From NCBI GenBank assembly GCA_012797845.1, contig JAAZOH010000039.1:1-42007 (forward strand): 42,007 nt of DNA. Reading direction: 5' to 3'. This DNA comes from Candidatus Beckwithbacteria bacterium. Lineage in GTDB: Bacteria > Patescibacteriota > Microgenomatia > UBA1400 > UBA1449. This document shows positions 14,143 through 41,993 of the stretch, piece by piece. Numbering within the stretch: the first letter of the stretch is position 1; each line of letters begins with the position of its first letter. Both the position numbers and the translations under genes were made by a program. A model generated the notes under the pieces. It saw nothing but the letters and a program-made list of their open reading frames with translations, was not told the DNA's origin and did not search any database.

Positions 14143-14152
14143 GAAGTTAATG

Positions 14153-14225
14153 TGAGCCAGCTGGGACTCGAACCCAGGACACCCTGCTTAAAAGGCAGGT
14201 GCTCTACCAACTGAGCTACTGGCCC
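14153..14225 (-). tRNA. tRNA-Lys (anticodon TTT)
   Basis: Full cloverleaf on the minus strand. The acceptor GGGCCAG pairs with CTGGCTC (one G-U), with discriminator A at 14153. The anticodon loop is CTTTTAA on a 5-bp CCTGC/GCAGG stem, and the T-loop is TTCGAGT on CTGGG/CCCAG. CCA is not encoded. It would read AAA/AAG and is a typical substrate of wobble-uridine modification by Elp3. Confidence 0.97.
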
Positions 14226-15999: not shown

Positions 16000-16071
16000 G
16001 GCCCCTTCGTCTATCGGTTAGGACATGAGGTTTTCATCCTCAAAAGGCGGGTTCGATTCCCGCAGGGGTCA
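16000..16071 (+). tRNA. tRNA-Glu (anticodon TTC)
   Basis: The acceptor GGCCCCT pairs with AGGGGTC (one G-U); the anticodon loop TTTTCAT sits on TGAGG/CCTCA; the T-arm is GCGGG TTCGATT CCCGC; the discriminator is A at 16071. No CCA is encoded. The next coding gene starts only 9 bases later on the same strand. Confidence 0.97.
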
Positions 16072-16079
16072 CAAAGAGT

Positions 16080-19715: not shown

Positions 19716-19787
19716 GCGCTCATAGTTTAATGGATAGAACAAGGGCCTTCTAAGCCCTCGATGGAGGTTCGATTCCTCCTGGGCGCA
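19716..19787 (+). tRNA. tRNA-Arg (anticodon TCT)
   Basis: The acceptor GCGCTCA pairs with TGGGCGC; the anticodon loop CTTCTAA sits on AGGGC/GCCCT; the T-arm is GGAGG TTCGATT CCTCC; the discriminator is A. No CCA is encoded. It reads AGA. A small unrecognised gene follows 42 bases downstream. Confidence 0.97.
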
Positions 19788-19829
19788 CAACCTAAACTGT
19801 TAAAAACAAAAATTTACAGTTATAAATAT

Positions 19830-36131: not shown

Positions 36132-36272
36132 ATGAAAACAGAAAGCGCACAAAGCCGAGCAATTAAACAATATACCAAGAAAAATACAAAAAAAGCTAAA
36201 GAGATTAAAAAAGCTGTCAAACGAGGTGTGAAGCAGTATAGAGAAACTTTTAGAAAATTAGCTTATGCCTAA
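36132..36272 (+). CDS. Small basic protein, candidate antitoxin/partner of Doc (46 aa)
   Basis: A 46-residue frame running from an ATG 21 bases after an extended -10 box to a TAA that overlaps the next start. It is Lys/Arg-rich and helical (MKTESAQSRAIKQYTKKN at the start, VKQYRETFRKLAYA at the end). The overlap of 8 bases with the Doc/Fic gene, in another frame, is the arrangement of translationally coupled toxin-antitoxin pairs with the antitoxin first. It is not Phd-like in size and lacks the Fic-inhibitory (S/T)xxxE(G/N) motif. So it is either a reduced antitoxin, a nucleic-acid-binding regulator, or a leader peptide. Confidence 0.72.
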   Translation: MKTESAQSRAIKQYTKKNTKKAKEIKKAVKRGVKQYRETFRKLAYA

Positions 36273-36696
36273 GAGGGAATGGCTTGATTTAGATGATTTT
36301 GAATATCTTTGTTTTAACTTAGCTAGAGAGTTAATGACATTTGGTGAACCAATCCCTGATTTTTGCACAAGAAATAATGAGTTATTGGAATCTTCATTAG
36401 CCGCTCCTAGGCAAACTTTTTCAGGAAAATTATTACATCCAACCTTGGTTGATCAAGTTGTAGCTTTATTTTATTCTCTAATTAAAAATCACCCATTTGA
36501 AAATGGAAATAAAAGAATAGCTGTAATGGCTATATTGGTCTTTCTTCATGGGAATAATAAGTGGATAAGCATAAAACCATCTTCTTTGTATGAAATGGCT
36601 ATTTTTGTATCACAGTCGAAACCAAATGAAAAAGACACTGTTTATAGTAGAGTCAAAAATAAGATGAAGCCTTTTATTATCAATAGGGATAAGTAG
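36265..36696 (+). CDS. Doc-type Fic domain toxin
   Basis: Fic-fold enzyme; Doc proteins phosphorylate EF-Tu and stop growth. The active-site motif HPFENGNKR is at residues 76-84, with catalytic His76 and the Asn that distinguishes Doc (HxFxN..NKR) from AMPylating Fic (HxFx(D/E)GNGR). Gly81 in place of the usual Ala is a mix of the two. The helical core with HPTLVDQVVALFYSLIKNH before it fits the family, as does the length of 143 aa (Doc is about 126). Its ATG lies within the last codons of the small basic gene, so the two are coupled. A plasmid- or element-derived stabilisation module or a chromosomal stress switch is likely. Confidence 0.88.
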   Translation: MPKREWLDLDDFEYLCFNLARELMTFGEPIPDFCTRNNELLESSLAAPRQTFSGKLLHPTLVDQVVALFYSLIKNHPFENGNKRIAVMAILVFLHGNNKWISIKPSSLYEMAIFVSQSKPNEKDTVYSRVKNKMKPFIINRDK

Positions 36697-36927: not shown

Positions 36928-37656
36928 CTAGCTTCTTAAGGCATTGCAAATAGAGGTAAAGCAATCTTCCTGCATGTTACCTGGTGATAACGATACATTC
37001 TGTTTACTGTTTAATCTAATGACCTGATCATAATTTATCAACTCTGGAACGTTTTTTAACCAATGGTTTTCCATCCGAGTAATCACCACCCACACATTTC
37101 GTTTCAATCCTTCTCGTAATAAGTGAAAAGTATATTGCTGTGATGGTGGAAGTGTTTTCGGATATCTCAGCTTAATACTTCGATATGGGAACATCTCAAG
37201 ATACATAAGTTTGTGTGCTACAGCTTTCCAACCAACTACTTCACGAATAGTTCTAGTTCTTTTCCAATACCAATCCTGATTTACTCTGCCATCATCGTAG
37301 TGCCAGTAAGCTGTCTTAGGCTGGGTGTAACAAAGTGGAATCTTGTTCTCATGAAGCAAATTTTTACGATCATAGTCGAGAATTACAGAACTTAGTGAGT
37401 TAGTTTCCCACTTCATATCATGCCCTGGATTGGCTTGGAGTACCATCACTGTCGCCTTTATTGGATCGCCATAATAGGGGAAGGGTGTTATCTCGGTGCG
37501 AAGAGTATAGTCATGCAATAAACAATTTCTGATATCTTCGTCTGTTTTTTTGTTTGCTGACTTAATGAGATCTTTTGAGTACTGACCAAGCCAATCTGAA
37601 TCAGATCTCAAGATAAATGGTGCAATTAGAGGAAGATTAATCCAGGGGTTATTCAC
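36928..37656 (-). CDS. Conserved protein of unknown function, possibly uracil-DNA-glycosylase-like (242 aa)
   Basis: Member of what I recall as a widespread uncharacterised family. Pattern seen: NPWINLP at the start, PYYGDPIKATVMVLQANPGHD (given in part; the 'G-p..A.VvlL..NPG' block, about 61-80), KNLLHE, MFPYRS, LPPSQQYTFHLLREGLKRN, VVITRMENHWLKNVPEL, and near the end QNVSLSPGNM. The NPG and SPGN blocks sit where uracil-DNA-glycosylase folds place their water-activating and HPSP loops, but the link is tentative. The GTG start shares one base with the stop of the upstream gene (TAGTG), so the two are translated in tandem. Both lie in the accessory island. Confidence 0.7.
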   Translation of the reverse strand: MNNPWINLPLIAPFILRSDSDWLGQYSKDLIKSANKKTDEDIRNCLLHDYTLRTEITPFPYYGDPIKATVMVLQANPGHDMKWETNSLSSVILDYDRKNLLHENKIPLCYTQPKTAYWHYDDGRVNQDWYWKRTRTIREVVGWKAVAHKLMYLEMFPYRSIKLRYPKTLPPSQQYTFHLLREGLKRNVWVVITRMENHWLKNVPELINYDQVIRLNSKQNVSLSPGNMQEDCFTSICNALRS

Positions 37657-38564
37657 TATGAATAAATAGCAATTGGTATAATTGTTAAAATTTTTCCTTT
37701 CAGCTGTACTTTGAATTCAGGAATACTGAAGTTTTCTCCTAACTTTCCAAAGACATCAAAGAGCGATGTGAACATTTGTTTATTAAATACAGACAATGAA
37801 GATCTCTCAAGTAAATCAGCACCTTCTTGAGAAATATTTACAACCTTTCCAATTACAGTAAATGTATGACTACCAAACTCAAGTCCAGCGATATCCCTTG
37901 TGAAGTTGTCATAAATTGAGAAAAGAATAGAAAAGTTAAGTTCAGAATTTTCAAGAATTAAGGCTTTTTGTCCCTGTGAGTTAATATCATCTAAAAGCTC
38001 TTGCAATTTATTTCTCATTTTTTTCATAGGATCTAATTGCTTTTTTATTTCCTTTCGGTTCTGATTGGGAGTTAAATCGGAAAATGATGATAATAATTCA
38101 GTGGCTTTTATTAATCGAATAGTTTTCTCAAGCGAATTATTTAATGGATTTAAACTTACTATCCCACTAGCTTGAATGATTGAGCCTGTGGAAACTCTGT
38201 CAAAATCATTTTCTTTTTGCAGAGTTTGGAGCAATTTTTGATCTTCTAAAGAATTAACGAGTTTGTACAATAAAGATCCTAAAGTATGATATCTGACTTG
38301 AGAACTTTCTTGAGATTTGTTTGTACTTTTTTCTCTATCTGAATTCAATTCCGCATCAGCACCTATCTTAAAAAGATTAAAGACACTTGGTATAGAAAAG
38401 CCAGCTTTTAGATTCGCTTTTATATCAGAAGATGTTGCGTTTTCATCAACCGTTTTAACCTCTTCCATTATGCTAAACCCATCATCAATTGAGGCTAATG
38501 TGTCAAATAGCAAGTTTGAGTCAGCGTATACTGTTACAAATGGAACTTTTAATTTTTTAGTCAT
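37656..38564 (-). CDS. Protein of unknown function, first gene of a two-gene cassette (302 aa)
   Basis: Soluble, probably with an N-terminal beta segment (VPFVTVYADSNLLFDTLASI), a Gly/Ala-rich middle (KAGFSIPSVFNLFKIGADAE) and a C-terminal beta-rich domain (LEFGSHTFTVIGKVVNISQE onward). The layout recalls the DUF6414 family, which I name from memory and cannot verify. The next gene starts inside its stop codon, so the products probably act together. It lies 96 bases downstream of tRNA-His on the same strand, and its AT-rich, Ser/Asn-rich composition differs from the housekeeping genes. Two tightly coupled unknown genes beside a tRNA suggest a mobile defence-type cassette, which is inference. 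Confidence 0.72.
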   Translation of the reverse strand: MTKKLKVPFVTVYADSNLLFDTLASIDDGFSIMEEVKTVDENATSSDIKANLKAGFSIPSVFNLFKIGADAELNSDREKSTNKSQESSQVRYHTLGSLLYKLVNSLEDQKLLQTLQKENDFDRVSTGSIIQASGIVSLNPLNNSLEKTIRLIKATELLSSFSDLTPNQNRKEIKKQLDPMKKMRNKLQELLDDINSQGQKALILENSELNFSILFSIYDNFTRDIAGLEFGSHTFTVIGKVVNISQEGADLLERSSLSVFNKQMFTSLFDVFGKLGENFSIPEFKVQLKGKILTIIPIAIYS

Positions 38565-38659
38565 ACATAATCTTAGCTAGTTAATGGTAATCCAATTACT
38601 TTTACTGAGTCGATGCTCTCATATGCTTCTCTAATATTTTTTAAGTGTTTATTCCAGGG

Positions 38660-38733: not shown

Positions 38734-38782
38734 ATAATCTAATATGTTAAATTCTATAATTTCAAAATCTTGATAGCGCTTT

Positions 38783-38882
38783 GTCTAGCGGTAGACAAGT
38801 CTACCAATTGCCACTCAGGGAGTGGTCACCCTTTGGGTGAAGCTACAGCCATCATATAGCATTTCTAATCAAAATTAGAAAT
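38783..38882. repeat. Cluster of five palindromes next to tRNA-His
   Basis: Within 100 bp: GTCTA-GCGG-TAGAC (38783-38796), overlapping GGTAGAC-AA-GTCTACC (38790-38805), CCACTC-AGG-GAGTGG (38811-38825), TCACCC-TTT-GGGTGA (38826-38840), and ATTTCTAAT-CAAA-ATTAGAAAT (38861-38882). The third and fourth are adjacent and both have 6-bp stems and 3-base loops. The last lies just after the stop of the minus-strand Trm9-like gene and may help to end it. Confidence 0.85.
38799..38854 (-). pseudogene. Partial tRNA-His copy split by a 30-bp double-hairpin insert
   Basis: On the plus strand, TCTACCAATTG and AGCTACAGCC-A(T for C)-CA, which are contiguous in tRNA-His (about 38711-38735), recur here with 30 bases between them. 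Those 30 bases are exactly the two tandem 15-mer palindromes at 38811-38840. In tRNA terms the insert lies in the 5' strand of the D-stem, after position 12. The anticodon and T-arms are missing, so it is a broken 5' tRNA half. Confidence 0.75.
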
Positions 38883-38893
38883 TATGAGGGTTA

Positions 38894-39625
38894 TTATACC
38901 TTTTTACGGGCCAGGAGACAAAAGTTTTGACCATTAAAGATAGATAACCGGATTTGCCCCTTAGCAGCAAAGTAGAAGGTGTCTAGGCTAAAACCAGTCT
39001 GTTTGACTAAACGTAAAAATTCTCCCGGGAAAAAAGCTTTGCAAAAGCGCCAAACCCGTTTAACGGTTTTTTGACCATCAGAAACTGAATAGGGAACCCA
39101 GACAAAGCTAAAGTCGTTATACTGCAATTTTTTGCTAAGTTGGTTAAAATGATATTTCCAAAATCTGGTTTGCCAGAGGTTCCAAATCGAAAACACTGCA
39201 AAGCCATCCGCTTTAGTGTGTTTGAAGATCTGTTTCATGACTTCGTGTTGGCGATTTCGGTCCGGAATATGGTGAAAAACTCCCAGACAAAAAACCGCAT
39301 CAAATTGGCCAATGTTTTTCCAACCATCAGAGGTGGTAATATCACGAACCAGAAAGCGACGCTTGGGAAAACGTTTTTTAGCTTGATCTATTAATACTTG
39401 AGAAAAATCTATGCCTAGATAGTAAATTTTTTTACCACCTAGTTCAGTTAAAAGCCGGCCGCTGCCACAACCTACATCCAAAACCCGCATACCTGGCTTA
39501 ACTTGGGCTACAAATGGTAAAATTTCAGGCCAGAGCCGTTTTTTACGGGTTTCGGCAAAATGAAGGCCAATCGTATTATAATGGTCTTTTACCTGCTGGA
39601 CTTGTTGATACGGTGATAAAGGCAC
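38894..39625 (-). CDS. Trm9/ALKBH8-like tRNA wobble-uridine methyltransferase candidate
   Basis: SAM methyltransferase with a strongly Trm9-like N-terminus: VKDHYNTIGLHFAETRKKRL followed by WPEILPFV corresponds to the 'YdxIAxHFsxTRxxxWP.v' block of Trm9/ALKBH8. Motif I is VLDVGCGSGRLL (about 48-59), the motif II Asp is in YYLGIDFSQ, then DAVFCLGVFHHI. Trm9 enzymes methylate carboxymethyl-uridine (cm5U) at tRNA position 34 to give mcm5U, and Elp3 makes cm5U. Here the elp3-like gene is divergent, 51 bases away, which supports that job. The start is GTG (39625). Length 243 aa. A Trm112-like partner was not seen in the window. Confidence 0.78.
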   Translation of the reverse strand: MPLSPYQQVQQVKDHYNTIGLHFAETRKKRLWPEILPFVAQVKPGMRVLDVGCGSGRLLTELGGKKIYYLGIDFSQVLIDQAKKRFPKRRFLVRDITTSDGWKNIGQFDAVFCLGVFHHIPDRNRQHEVMKQIFKHTKADGFAVFSIWNLWQTRFWKYHFNQLSKKLQYNDFSFVWVPYSVSDGQKTVKRVWRFCKAFFPGEFLRLVKQTGFSLDTFYFAAKGQIRLSIFNGQNFCLLARKKV

Positions 39626-39635
39626 AATAAAACCT

Positions 39636-39671
39636 TACGTATTTTTAATATTATTATCTTTAAAATACGTA
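39636..39671. promoter_or_regulatory. Inverted repeat in the Trm9-like/elp3 divergent promoter
   Basis: TACGTATTTTTAA (39636-39648) and TTAAAATACGTA (39660-39671) form an inverted repeat with one unpaired base and an 11-base centre. It fills most of the 51-bp gap between the two divergent genes. Both arms contain a TAAAA(A/T) box, so the repeat may be paired -10 elements, an operator, or both. Confidence 0.55.
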
Positions 39672-39676
39672 TAAGT

Positions 39677-41230
39677 ATGAAAACTATCAAAGATTTATTA
39701 TACCAAGATTTAGCTAAAGCCAACTTGTCTAATTGGGATAAAACCAAGCGGCGTTGGGCTCGACAACTAGGAAAAATTCCTAGTAATACGGAAATTATTA
39801 AAGCTTATCATAGCTTGCTGACTGAGCAAAAAATTGAGCCTAATAAGGCTTTGGAGACTAGTTTGAGGGTGCGTAAGGTTCGGACTCTGTCTGGAGTAGC
39901 GCCTTTTGCGGTCATGATGAAACCCTGGCCATGTCCGGGCAATTGTATCTATTGCCCTAATGAAGCTGGTATGCCCAAAAGCTATATGAGTGATGAGCCA
40001 GCAGCGGCTCGGGCTAAGAATCTACAATTTGATCCCAAGTTGCAGGTGCAAACTAGAATCAAGCAAATGGAGGCAATTGGTCACAAGCCTCAAAAGATCC
40101 AAATTATTGTGATTGGGGCGACTTTTTCGGCATACCCTAATGTTTATAAAAAGCAGTTTATAAAAGCTATTTTTGATGCTTGTAATGGTCAGACAGCTAA
40201 AACCTTGGAACAGGCTCAAAAACTAAATGAAACCGCTACCTATCGGATTGTAGGTATGAGTGTAGAAACTCGGCCGGATTGGATTAATAAAAAAGAAGTG
40301 GTTTTGCTAAGGAAATTGGGAGTTACTAAAGTTCAACTGGGAGTGCAAAGTTTGGATGAAACAGTTTTAAAAACAATTGGTCGTGGTCATGACGTTTTAG
40401 CGGTACGAAAAGCAACCAAGCTGCTTCGAGATGGAGGCTTTAAAATTTGCTATCATCTAATGCCGAATTTACCAGGTTCAAATCCAAGGCTTGATGTCCG
40501 AGTTGCTAAGCAAATTTTTACCGATTCAGATTTCCGGCCGGATACAGTCAAAATTTATCCCTGTATTGTAGTGCCTGGAACTAGGCTGTATGAGCTGTGG
40601 CAGCAGGGTAATTACCAAAGCTATGATGACAAGATTTTAGCTAAAACTTTGATTGAAATCAAAAAATTAGTCCCCAAATATTGCCGGATTGATCGTTTGG
40701 TTCGAGATATTACCACTAGCTGGACTGCTTCAGGGACTAAAAAAACCAACATGCGACAACTGATTGCTGAGGAAATGAAAAAGCAAAACATTAGCTGTCA
40801 GTGTATCCGTTGCCGGGAAATCAAGGATCAAGTTCATGAAACTAGTAAACCTGACTTATTAGTATTGCCCATTAAAATAAGTGGAGCATCTGAATACTTT
40901 TTAAGTTTTGAAAGCAAAGACCACTTATTTGCCCTACTGCGTTTACGTTTGCCAAATAAAAATGAACTTTCTAAGTATTTTTCAGTTTTAGAAGATGCAG
41001 CTATTATTCGGGAAGTTCAAGTTTTTGGTGAGCAGATTGAATTTAGCAAACATGAAAAGCAGGCTACACAGCACAAACATTATGGCCGAAAACTAATTGC
41101 TCAGGCTGAAAAGATTGCCAAAGAACATGGTTTTTCTAAAATTGCTATTATTTCTGGAGTTGGAGTTCGTACATATTATGAACGACTTGGGTATAAATTA
41201 GAGCAGACATACATGGTTAAAAAAAATTAA
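39677..41230 (+). CDS. elp3: tRNA wobble uridine 5-carboxymethylation enzyme Elp3 (radical SAM + GNAT)
   Basis: Catalytic Elongator-type enzyme that uses acetyl-CoA and a radical SAM reaction to put a carboxymethyl group on U34 of tRNAs. An N-terminal RNA-binding region (basic, 1-70) is followed by the radical SAM domain with the 4Fe-4S cysteines Cys86, Cys90 and Cys93 in PCPGNCIYCPNE. Continuing conserved blocks are PNVYKKQFIKAIFDACNGQ, VGMSVETRPDW, LGVTKVQLGVQSLDE and KIYPCIVVPGT. The C-terminal acetyltransferase domain carries QHKHYGRKLIAQAEKIAKEH and IISGVGVRTYYERLGY. At 517 aa it is close to archaeal and bacterial Elp3. The Trm9-like gene is divergent from it. Confidence 0.96.
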   Translation: MKTIKDLLYQDLAKANLSNWDKTKRRWARQLGKIPSNTEIIKAYHSLLTEQKIEPNKALETSLRVRKVRTLSGVAPFAVMMKPWPCPGNCIYCPNEAGMPKSYMSDEPAAARAKNLQFDPKLQVQTRIKQMEAIGHKPQKIQIIVIGATFSAYPNVYKKQFIKAIFDACNGQTAKTLEQAQKLNETATYRIVGMSVETRPDWINKKEVVLLRKLGVTKVQLGVQSLDETVLKTIGRGHDVLAVRKATKLLRDGGFKICYHLMPNLPGSNPRLDVRVAKQIFTDSDFRPDTVKIYPCIVVPGTRLYELWQQGNYQSYDDKILAKTLIEIKKLVPKYCRIDRLVRDITTSWTASGTKKTNMRQLIAEEMKKQNISCQCIRCREIKDQVHETSKPDLLVLPIKISGASEYFLSFESKDHLFALLRLRLPNKNELSKYFSVLEDAAIIREVQVFGEQIEFSKHEKQATQHKHYGRKLIAQAEKIAKEHGFSKIAIISGVGVRTYYERLGYKLEQTYMVKKN

Positions 41231-41919: not shown

Positions 41920-41993
41920 GCTCCCGTAGCTCAATTGGATAGAGCGTCTGTCTTCGGAACAGAAGGTTGTGTGTTCGATTCACGCCGGGAGCA
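41920..41993 (+). tRNA. tRNA-Arg (anticodon TCG)
   Basis: The acceptor GCTCCCG pairs with CGGGAGC; the anticodon loop CTTCGGA sits on TCTGT/ACAGA; the T-arm is GTGTG TTCGATT CACGC with one G-U; the discriminator is A. It reads CGA and other CGN codons, depending on modification. No CCA is encoded. What lies downstream is outside the window. Confidence 0.97.

Follow-up and report, generated by a model that had tools for sequence, protein, structure and literature searches.

A divergent Elp3 and Trm9-like methyltransferase gene pair as a probable minimal wobble-uridine modification pathway in Patescibacteria

The Elp3 locus and its surroundings

The window, i.e., the whole stretch of 42,007 nucleotides of Candidatus Beckwithbacteria DNA that was analysed, encodes on its forward strand an Elp3 of 517 amino acids with radical SAM and GNAT parts (39677..41230), which we propose to be the cm5U34 synthase. 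An ORF on the reverse strand (38894..39625) encodes a Trm9-like class I SAM-dependent methyltransferase of 243 amino acids, the proposed cm5U34 carboxyl methyltransferase. Its GTG start is supported by a genome of the same family (G086), in which the homologue starts at the same residue (MPLNTYQQ). These ORF coordinates bear out the opposite orientation and the 51 bp distance that an earlier note on this DNA had described, with the spacer at 39626-39676. Most of the spacer is occupied by an imperfect palindrome of 36 bp (39636..39671), detected in a repeat search, with 16-nt arms that are 88% complementary and a 4-nt loop. It is possible that this is a shared operator or control site, or a set of paired promoter elements, but any such role is inferred. 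The corresponding spacer in G086 likewise has a short inverted repeat, as judged by eye.

Using ARAGORN, we found that the window also carries tRNA-Lys(UUU) (14152..14225, reverse strand), tRNA-Glu(UUC) (16000..16072, forward strand), and tRNA-Arg(UCU) (19716..19788, forward strand), in line with the earlier note; their role as the expected substrates is inferred. Further tRNA genes were Arg(UCG) at 41920 and His(GUG) at 38657. Near the gene pair, Rfam gave nothing beyond tRNA-His, and a plasmid tblastn search returned no matches. Pieces matching the adjacent tRNA-His gene (16 nt at 94% and 11 nt at 100%) occur in preserved order at 38780-38856, a region that looks like a decayed tRNA-His copy. 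The window also holds a gene for a Fic/DOC family protein (36265-36696; 1e-13), followed by reverse-strand genes for a protein without a Pfam match (36928-37656) and a DUF6414 protein (37656-38564).

The window encodes an intact Elp3

The NCBIfam model TIGR01211 matched the window Elp3 with 526.7 bits (curated cut-off 350) over residues 24-516, through the end of the GNAT domain, and the radical SAM cysteines are C86/C90/C93, in a CX3CX2C arrangement within CPGNCIYC. The top PDB match was the ELP3-family structure 6ia8 (9.5e-120, residues 35-515), and the C-terminal GNAT/KAT domain is covered, since the alignment with solved ELP3-family structures reaches residue 515. Pfam gave the radical SAM parts only, with no separate GNAT call. 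The description of an intact Elp3 with these three cysteines and a GNAT domain therefore stands. The predicted protein meets the family criteria by its cut-off score, cysteines, and GNAT end; cm5U34 formation itself is inferred. For archaeal Elp3, in vitro formation of cm5U by the protein on its own has been reported (PMC7663514, PMC5372719).

The neighbouring methyltransferase is Trm9-like

Domain libraries assigned only generic class I methyltransferase Pfam models to the window methyltransferase, and no specific NCBIfam model scored above its own cut-off. Against the PDB, a single-sequence phmmer search ranked Yarrowia Trm9 (5cm2_Z) first (6.5e-12), which bears out the Trm9/ALKBH8 block claimed for this protein. 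Trm9 was also on top with the family profile A1 (9.5e-24; runner-up, 1.5e-14) and with a profile from a broader alignment (1.6e-29; runner-up, 6.1e-26), where the margin was smaller because a broad profile lifts methyltransferase scores across the board. An AlphaFold2 model (mean pLDDT of 92) likewise had Trm9 as its best Foldseek match (8.8e-15; runner-up, 5.9e-14), with a margin that is modest because class I folds resemble each other.

In yeast Trm9, residues R29, H115, R241, Y243, and N271 are required for tRNA binding and catalysis (PMC5372719). The alignment to 5cm2_Z, which takes in the counterparts of TR, HH, and RY as well as the C-terminal N, placed R27, H119, R193, and N234 of the window protein at the positions of yeast R29, H115, R241, and N271; the yeast numbering was transferred by motif via the Yarrowia chain and not from the yeast sequence itself. 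Across 114 family sequences these residues were conserved in 99% (R27), 100% (H119), 97% (R193), and 95% (N234), and W148 was likewise conserved, so that the Trm9-type substrate-side residues rank among the most conserved of the family. The full set of R27, H119, R193, and N234 was absent from each of seven methyltransferases of E. coli (CmoM, CmoA, CmoB, UbiG, UbiE, BioC, and Tam) and from each of six other methyltransferases of the window's own genome. The equivalent of yeast Y243 is probably missing from the window protein, where C195 and K196 stand in the place of the Trm9 Y and H; at the probable Y243 position, some relatives have Y and the rest have C, F, V, or H. This residue match is a more telling indication of Trm9 likeness than the margins of the fold and profile searches.

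Among the 50 sequences of a phylogenetic tree, the Elp3-linked methyltransferases of bacteria formed one clade (94/88) that included two unlinked members. The best tree placed Trm9 and one archaeal sequence as sister to the bacterial family, although with a support of only 61/70, and neither CmoM (p-AU 0.32) nor UbiG (p-AU 0.25) could be rejected as alternative sister. At this depth, the phylogeny that the earlier note had asked for places Trm9 beside the family only weakly and does not resolve whether the two are sisters. The label Trm9-like is justified, while a shared origin in a single Trm9 ancestor is not demonstrated, and we do not call the family Trm9 because the criterion of a Trm112 partner is unmet. 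No ortholog of the Haloferax-type Trm9 was identified, since the Halocatena match (L309) is without the residue set and was not taken as Trm9.

The two genes are paired and co-inherited across the phylum

We collected Elp3 loci from the window's order with flanks of about 1.5 kb. The methyltransferase was present in 23 of 30 such loci, each time upstream on the opposite strand; the exceptions seen to the divergent layout were a pair with both genes in the same direction (G071, L078) and a pair that is split (G039). Across the phylum, among loci picked only for Elp3 and searched with profile A1, which was made from the window's order alone, the gene was directly upstream and divergent in 83/120 and in no other arrangement. 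The distance was within 500 bp for 79 of these 83 pairs, and the next commonest Elp3-flanking family occurred in only 19/120 loci. This recurrence across the phylum rules out a chance neighbourhood.

At the genome level, Elp3 exceeded the TIGR01211 cut-off in 137/380 phylum genomes, and nearly one-third of the sampled genomes had both genes. The methyltransferase was found in 109 of 140 Elp3-positive genomes compared to 4 of 240 Elp3-negative genomes (n = 380; Fisher p of 1e-60), using a threshold of E <= 1e-30 and a profile (A2) built mostly from Elp3-linked members. Since the sampled genomes share ancestry, the p-value is nominal. Of the four Elp3-negative carriers, three are 68-80% complete and belong to a family (f30) that has Elp3 in other members. 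More generally, the genomes are mostly draft MAGs of varying completeness, so absences are statistical and related lineages inflate p-values. Protein distances of Elp3 and the methyltransferase correlated at 0.72, with shuffles reaching at most 0.09, a correlation that includes shared species history. Adjacency, co-occurrence, and correlated distances together satisfy the neighbourhood and co-inheritance check that the earlier note had set. Its idea of a two-gene pathway in a reduced bacterium is supported as well, but nothing makes it special to the window bacterium, given that the pair is widespread. It was found too in Chloroflexota, in Fermentibacteria, and on two contigs labelled Deltaproteobacteria. 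On archaeal contigs L284 and L289 (one Nanoarchaeota), Elp3 lies 0.7-1 kb from a related, distinct methyltransferase family with HC in place of HH.

The methyltransferase was absent from 31 of the 140 Elp3-positive genomes, indicating that Elp3 does not require it.

MnmG and Trm112 are rare, while MnmA is present

MnmG was found in none of 88 genomes of the order, the window's own genome included, and the possibility that the host has MnmG was rejected on this count. In the phylum it occurred in 6/380 genomes, never together with Elp3. MnmA is the enzyme that forms s2U34, and it was present in 75/88 order genomes, again including the window's own. While the pathway towards mcm5U, the product named in the earlier note, is supported, the presence of MnmA makes mcm5s2U the likelier product in the Lys and Glu tRNAs.

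Trm112 (PF03966) was found in 11/88 order genomes, only two of which have a real Elp3, namely G087 and the window's own genome. The match in the latter is marginal, a zinc ribbon scoring 21.5 bits (G000:C40:21648-21752); the same contig also carries two other methyltransferase matches. The statement that the pathway would run without Trm112 thus holds for 62 of 64 order genomes with a real Elp3 and is qualified by this one borderline match in the genome for which it was made. A general Trm112 partner encoded at another site was rejected, as Trm112 is nearly absent from Elp3-positive genomes, and G086, a close relative, has the gene pair without it. The proposed pathway is therefore not generally Trm112-dependent.

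An asparagine-synthetase-like protein accompanies Elp3 in a few genomes

In 6 of the 31 Elp3-positive genomes without the methyltransferase, a protein of 260-283 amino acids with a PF00733 asparagine-synthase ligase domain, and no glutaminase domain, is encoded beside Elp3 (L166:2611-3396, L124:5210-6022, L123:5349-5780, L115:2702-3481, L227:2696-3484, and L113:2016-2864). The gene lies one gene away from Elp3 in one of the six, and one copy is cut by a contig end. A profile of this protein matched exactly those six of all 380 genomes, which represent four families, and no Elp3-negative genome. The profile was built from the Elp3-adjacent members, and the informative part is that no further copy was found. 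By hand calculation, this restriction has a chance of about 2e-7 if genomes are independent; the genomes are, however, related. Within family f56, some members have the methyltransferase and others have the asparagine-synthase-like protein instead. Twelve of the remaining methyltransferase-less genomes belong to family f40 (e.g., L196, L199, L205, L208, L214, and L216), where neither protein is found near Elp3.

Conversion of cm5U to ncm5U requires an ATP-dependent amidation of a carboxylate, and the enzyme for this step in yeast is unknown (the missing enzyme is discussed below). From gene context alone, we hypothesize that the asparagine-synthetase-like ATPase is a candidate for the amidating enzyme. 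A modular system in Patescibacteria could then be imagined, in which Elp3 makes cm5U and either the Trm112-free Trm9-like methyltransferase or, in a few lineages, the ATPase finishes the modification to mcm5U or ncm5U, respectively; we offer this only tentatively and would not yet bet on it.

Proposed pathway and alternative explanations

Gene identity, divergent pairing, co-occurrence, the lack of MnmG, the near-absence of Trm112, the presence of MnmA, and the match to Trm9 in fold and residues are direct observations. On these grounds we consider it probable that the two genes form a minimal bacterial wobble-uridine pathway, whose substrates, two reactions, product, and order of steps are inferred in the absence of activity data. 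Elp3 alone would use acetyl-CoA and radical SAM chemistry to form 5-carboxymethyluridine at U34 of, e.g., Lys(UUU), Glu(UUC), and Arg(UCU) tRNAs. Other Elongator subunits would presumably not be needed; that Elp1, Elp2, and Elp4-6 are absent is an assumption based on published work on Elp3 of prokaryotes (PMC7663514). The Trm9-like enzyme would then methylate the cm5U34 carboxylate with SAM to give mcm5U34, without Trm112, and thiolation by MnmA may convert this to mcm5s2U34 in the Lys and Glu tRNAs. The pair would thereby replace MnmE-MnmG in these bacteria. The likeliest product is accordingly worded as mcm5(s2)U34, for which activity is not shown.

It could also be hypothesized that Elp3 makes cm5U34 while its neighbour methylates another position or RNA, such as an anticodon-loop or ribosomal site, with the pairing reflecting shared regulation of translation genes. 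The tree cannot firmly place the family and one active-site tyrosine of Trm9 is probably lost in the window protein, which leaves room for this reading. We nevertheless regard it as unlikely: Trm9 is the best match by sequence and by fold, its substrate-side residues belong to the best conserved positions, and the gene tracks Elp3 specifically, which would be unexpected for a general translation methyltransferase. A role like that of CmoM, esterifying the other U34 carboxylate (cmo5U to mcmo5U) in convergence with Trm9, would involve the same chemistry, and CmoM was not rejected as sister of the family. Yet E. coli CmoM lacks R27, H119, W148, and N234, and the methyltransferase follows Elp3, the maker of cm5U, so that we give this role very little credence.

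Least credible of all is an ordinary small-molecule methyltransferase that came to lie beside Elp3 by accident in this genome; a grouping with such enzymes was one of the two outcomes that the earlier note had named as a refutation. The generic Pfam domains and the failure of all NCBIfam models to reach their cut-offs are compatible with it, but the same divergent neighbour recurs in the phylum loci while other flanks vary, the gene is co-inherited with Elp3, and the genome's other methyltransferases are without the Trm9-type residue set. The neighbourhood and co-occurrence data contradict this explanation. In addition, profile and fold searches both put Trm9 first in the PDB, and the family shares the Trm9-type residues.

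Relation to known systems

A literature search, with most subscription journals outside its coverage, found no earlier description of a bacterial Elp3/Trm9-like pair, and a review described bacterial relatives of Trm112-dependent methyltransferases as undetectable (PMC5372719). Elp3 and a Trm9-like partner are common in a very large bacterial group that mostly lacks MnmG, and eukaryote-type mcm5(s2)U may therefore be an ordinary wobble modification in bacteria. A natural Trm112-free Trm9-like enzyme would also be a simple system for enzymology, and the Elp3-linked asparagine-synthetase-like protein is a testable candidate for the cm5U-to-ncm5U step, whose enzyme is missing in yeast (PMC3110198).

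Eukaryotic Elongator (Elp1-6) forms the mcm5U34 pathway with Trm9-Trm112 in yeast or ALKBH8-TRMT112 in humans, and both this pathway and the bacterial one use Elp3 as the catalytic subunit. They also share a Trm9-type methyltransferase that has R, H, R, and N in its active site, the expected U34 substrates, and a separate thiolation enzyme for s2U, which is MnmA in the bacterial case. Unlike the eukaryotic pathway, the bacterial one consists of two genes, usually a divergent pair, in carriers almost without Trm112. In archaea, clustering of Elp3 and Trm9 has been reported, with a putative Trm9 clustered in Sulfolobus (PMC5372719), and mcm5U has been documented in Haloferax (PMC7663514). Archaeal Elp3 works without Elongator partners, as is presumed for the bacterial one; some archaeal Trm9 candidates, however, occur together with Trm112 or as a fusion with it (PMC5372719), whereas the bacterial family is mostly without it. 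The Elp3 of Dehalococcoides mccartyi, whose structure is solved, is likewise a stand-alone bacterial Elp3, from what was presented as the sole bacterial clade with Elp3 (PMC7663514). The Elp3 proteins described here belong to another phylum, exceed the cut-off in 137/380 genomes, and mostly have a methyltransferase partner. The MnmE-MnmG(-MnmC) pathway of bacteria acts on the same set of tRNAs, again at C5 of U34, but with other enzymes and another product (cmnm5U/mnm5U), and MnmG occurred in no Elp3-positive genome sampled. Finally, E. coli CmoM also esterifies a U34 carboxylate in a SAM-dependent manner, although it acts on cmo5U and does so without the residue set conserved in the Elp3-linked family.
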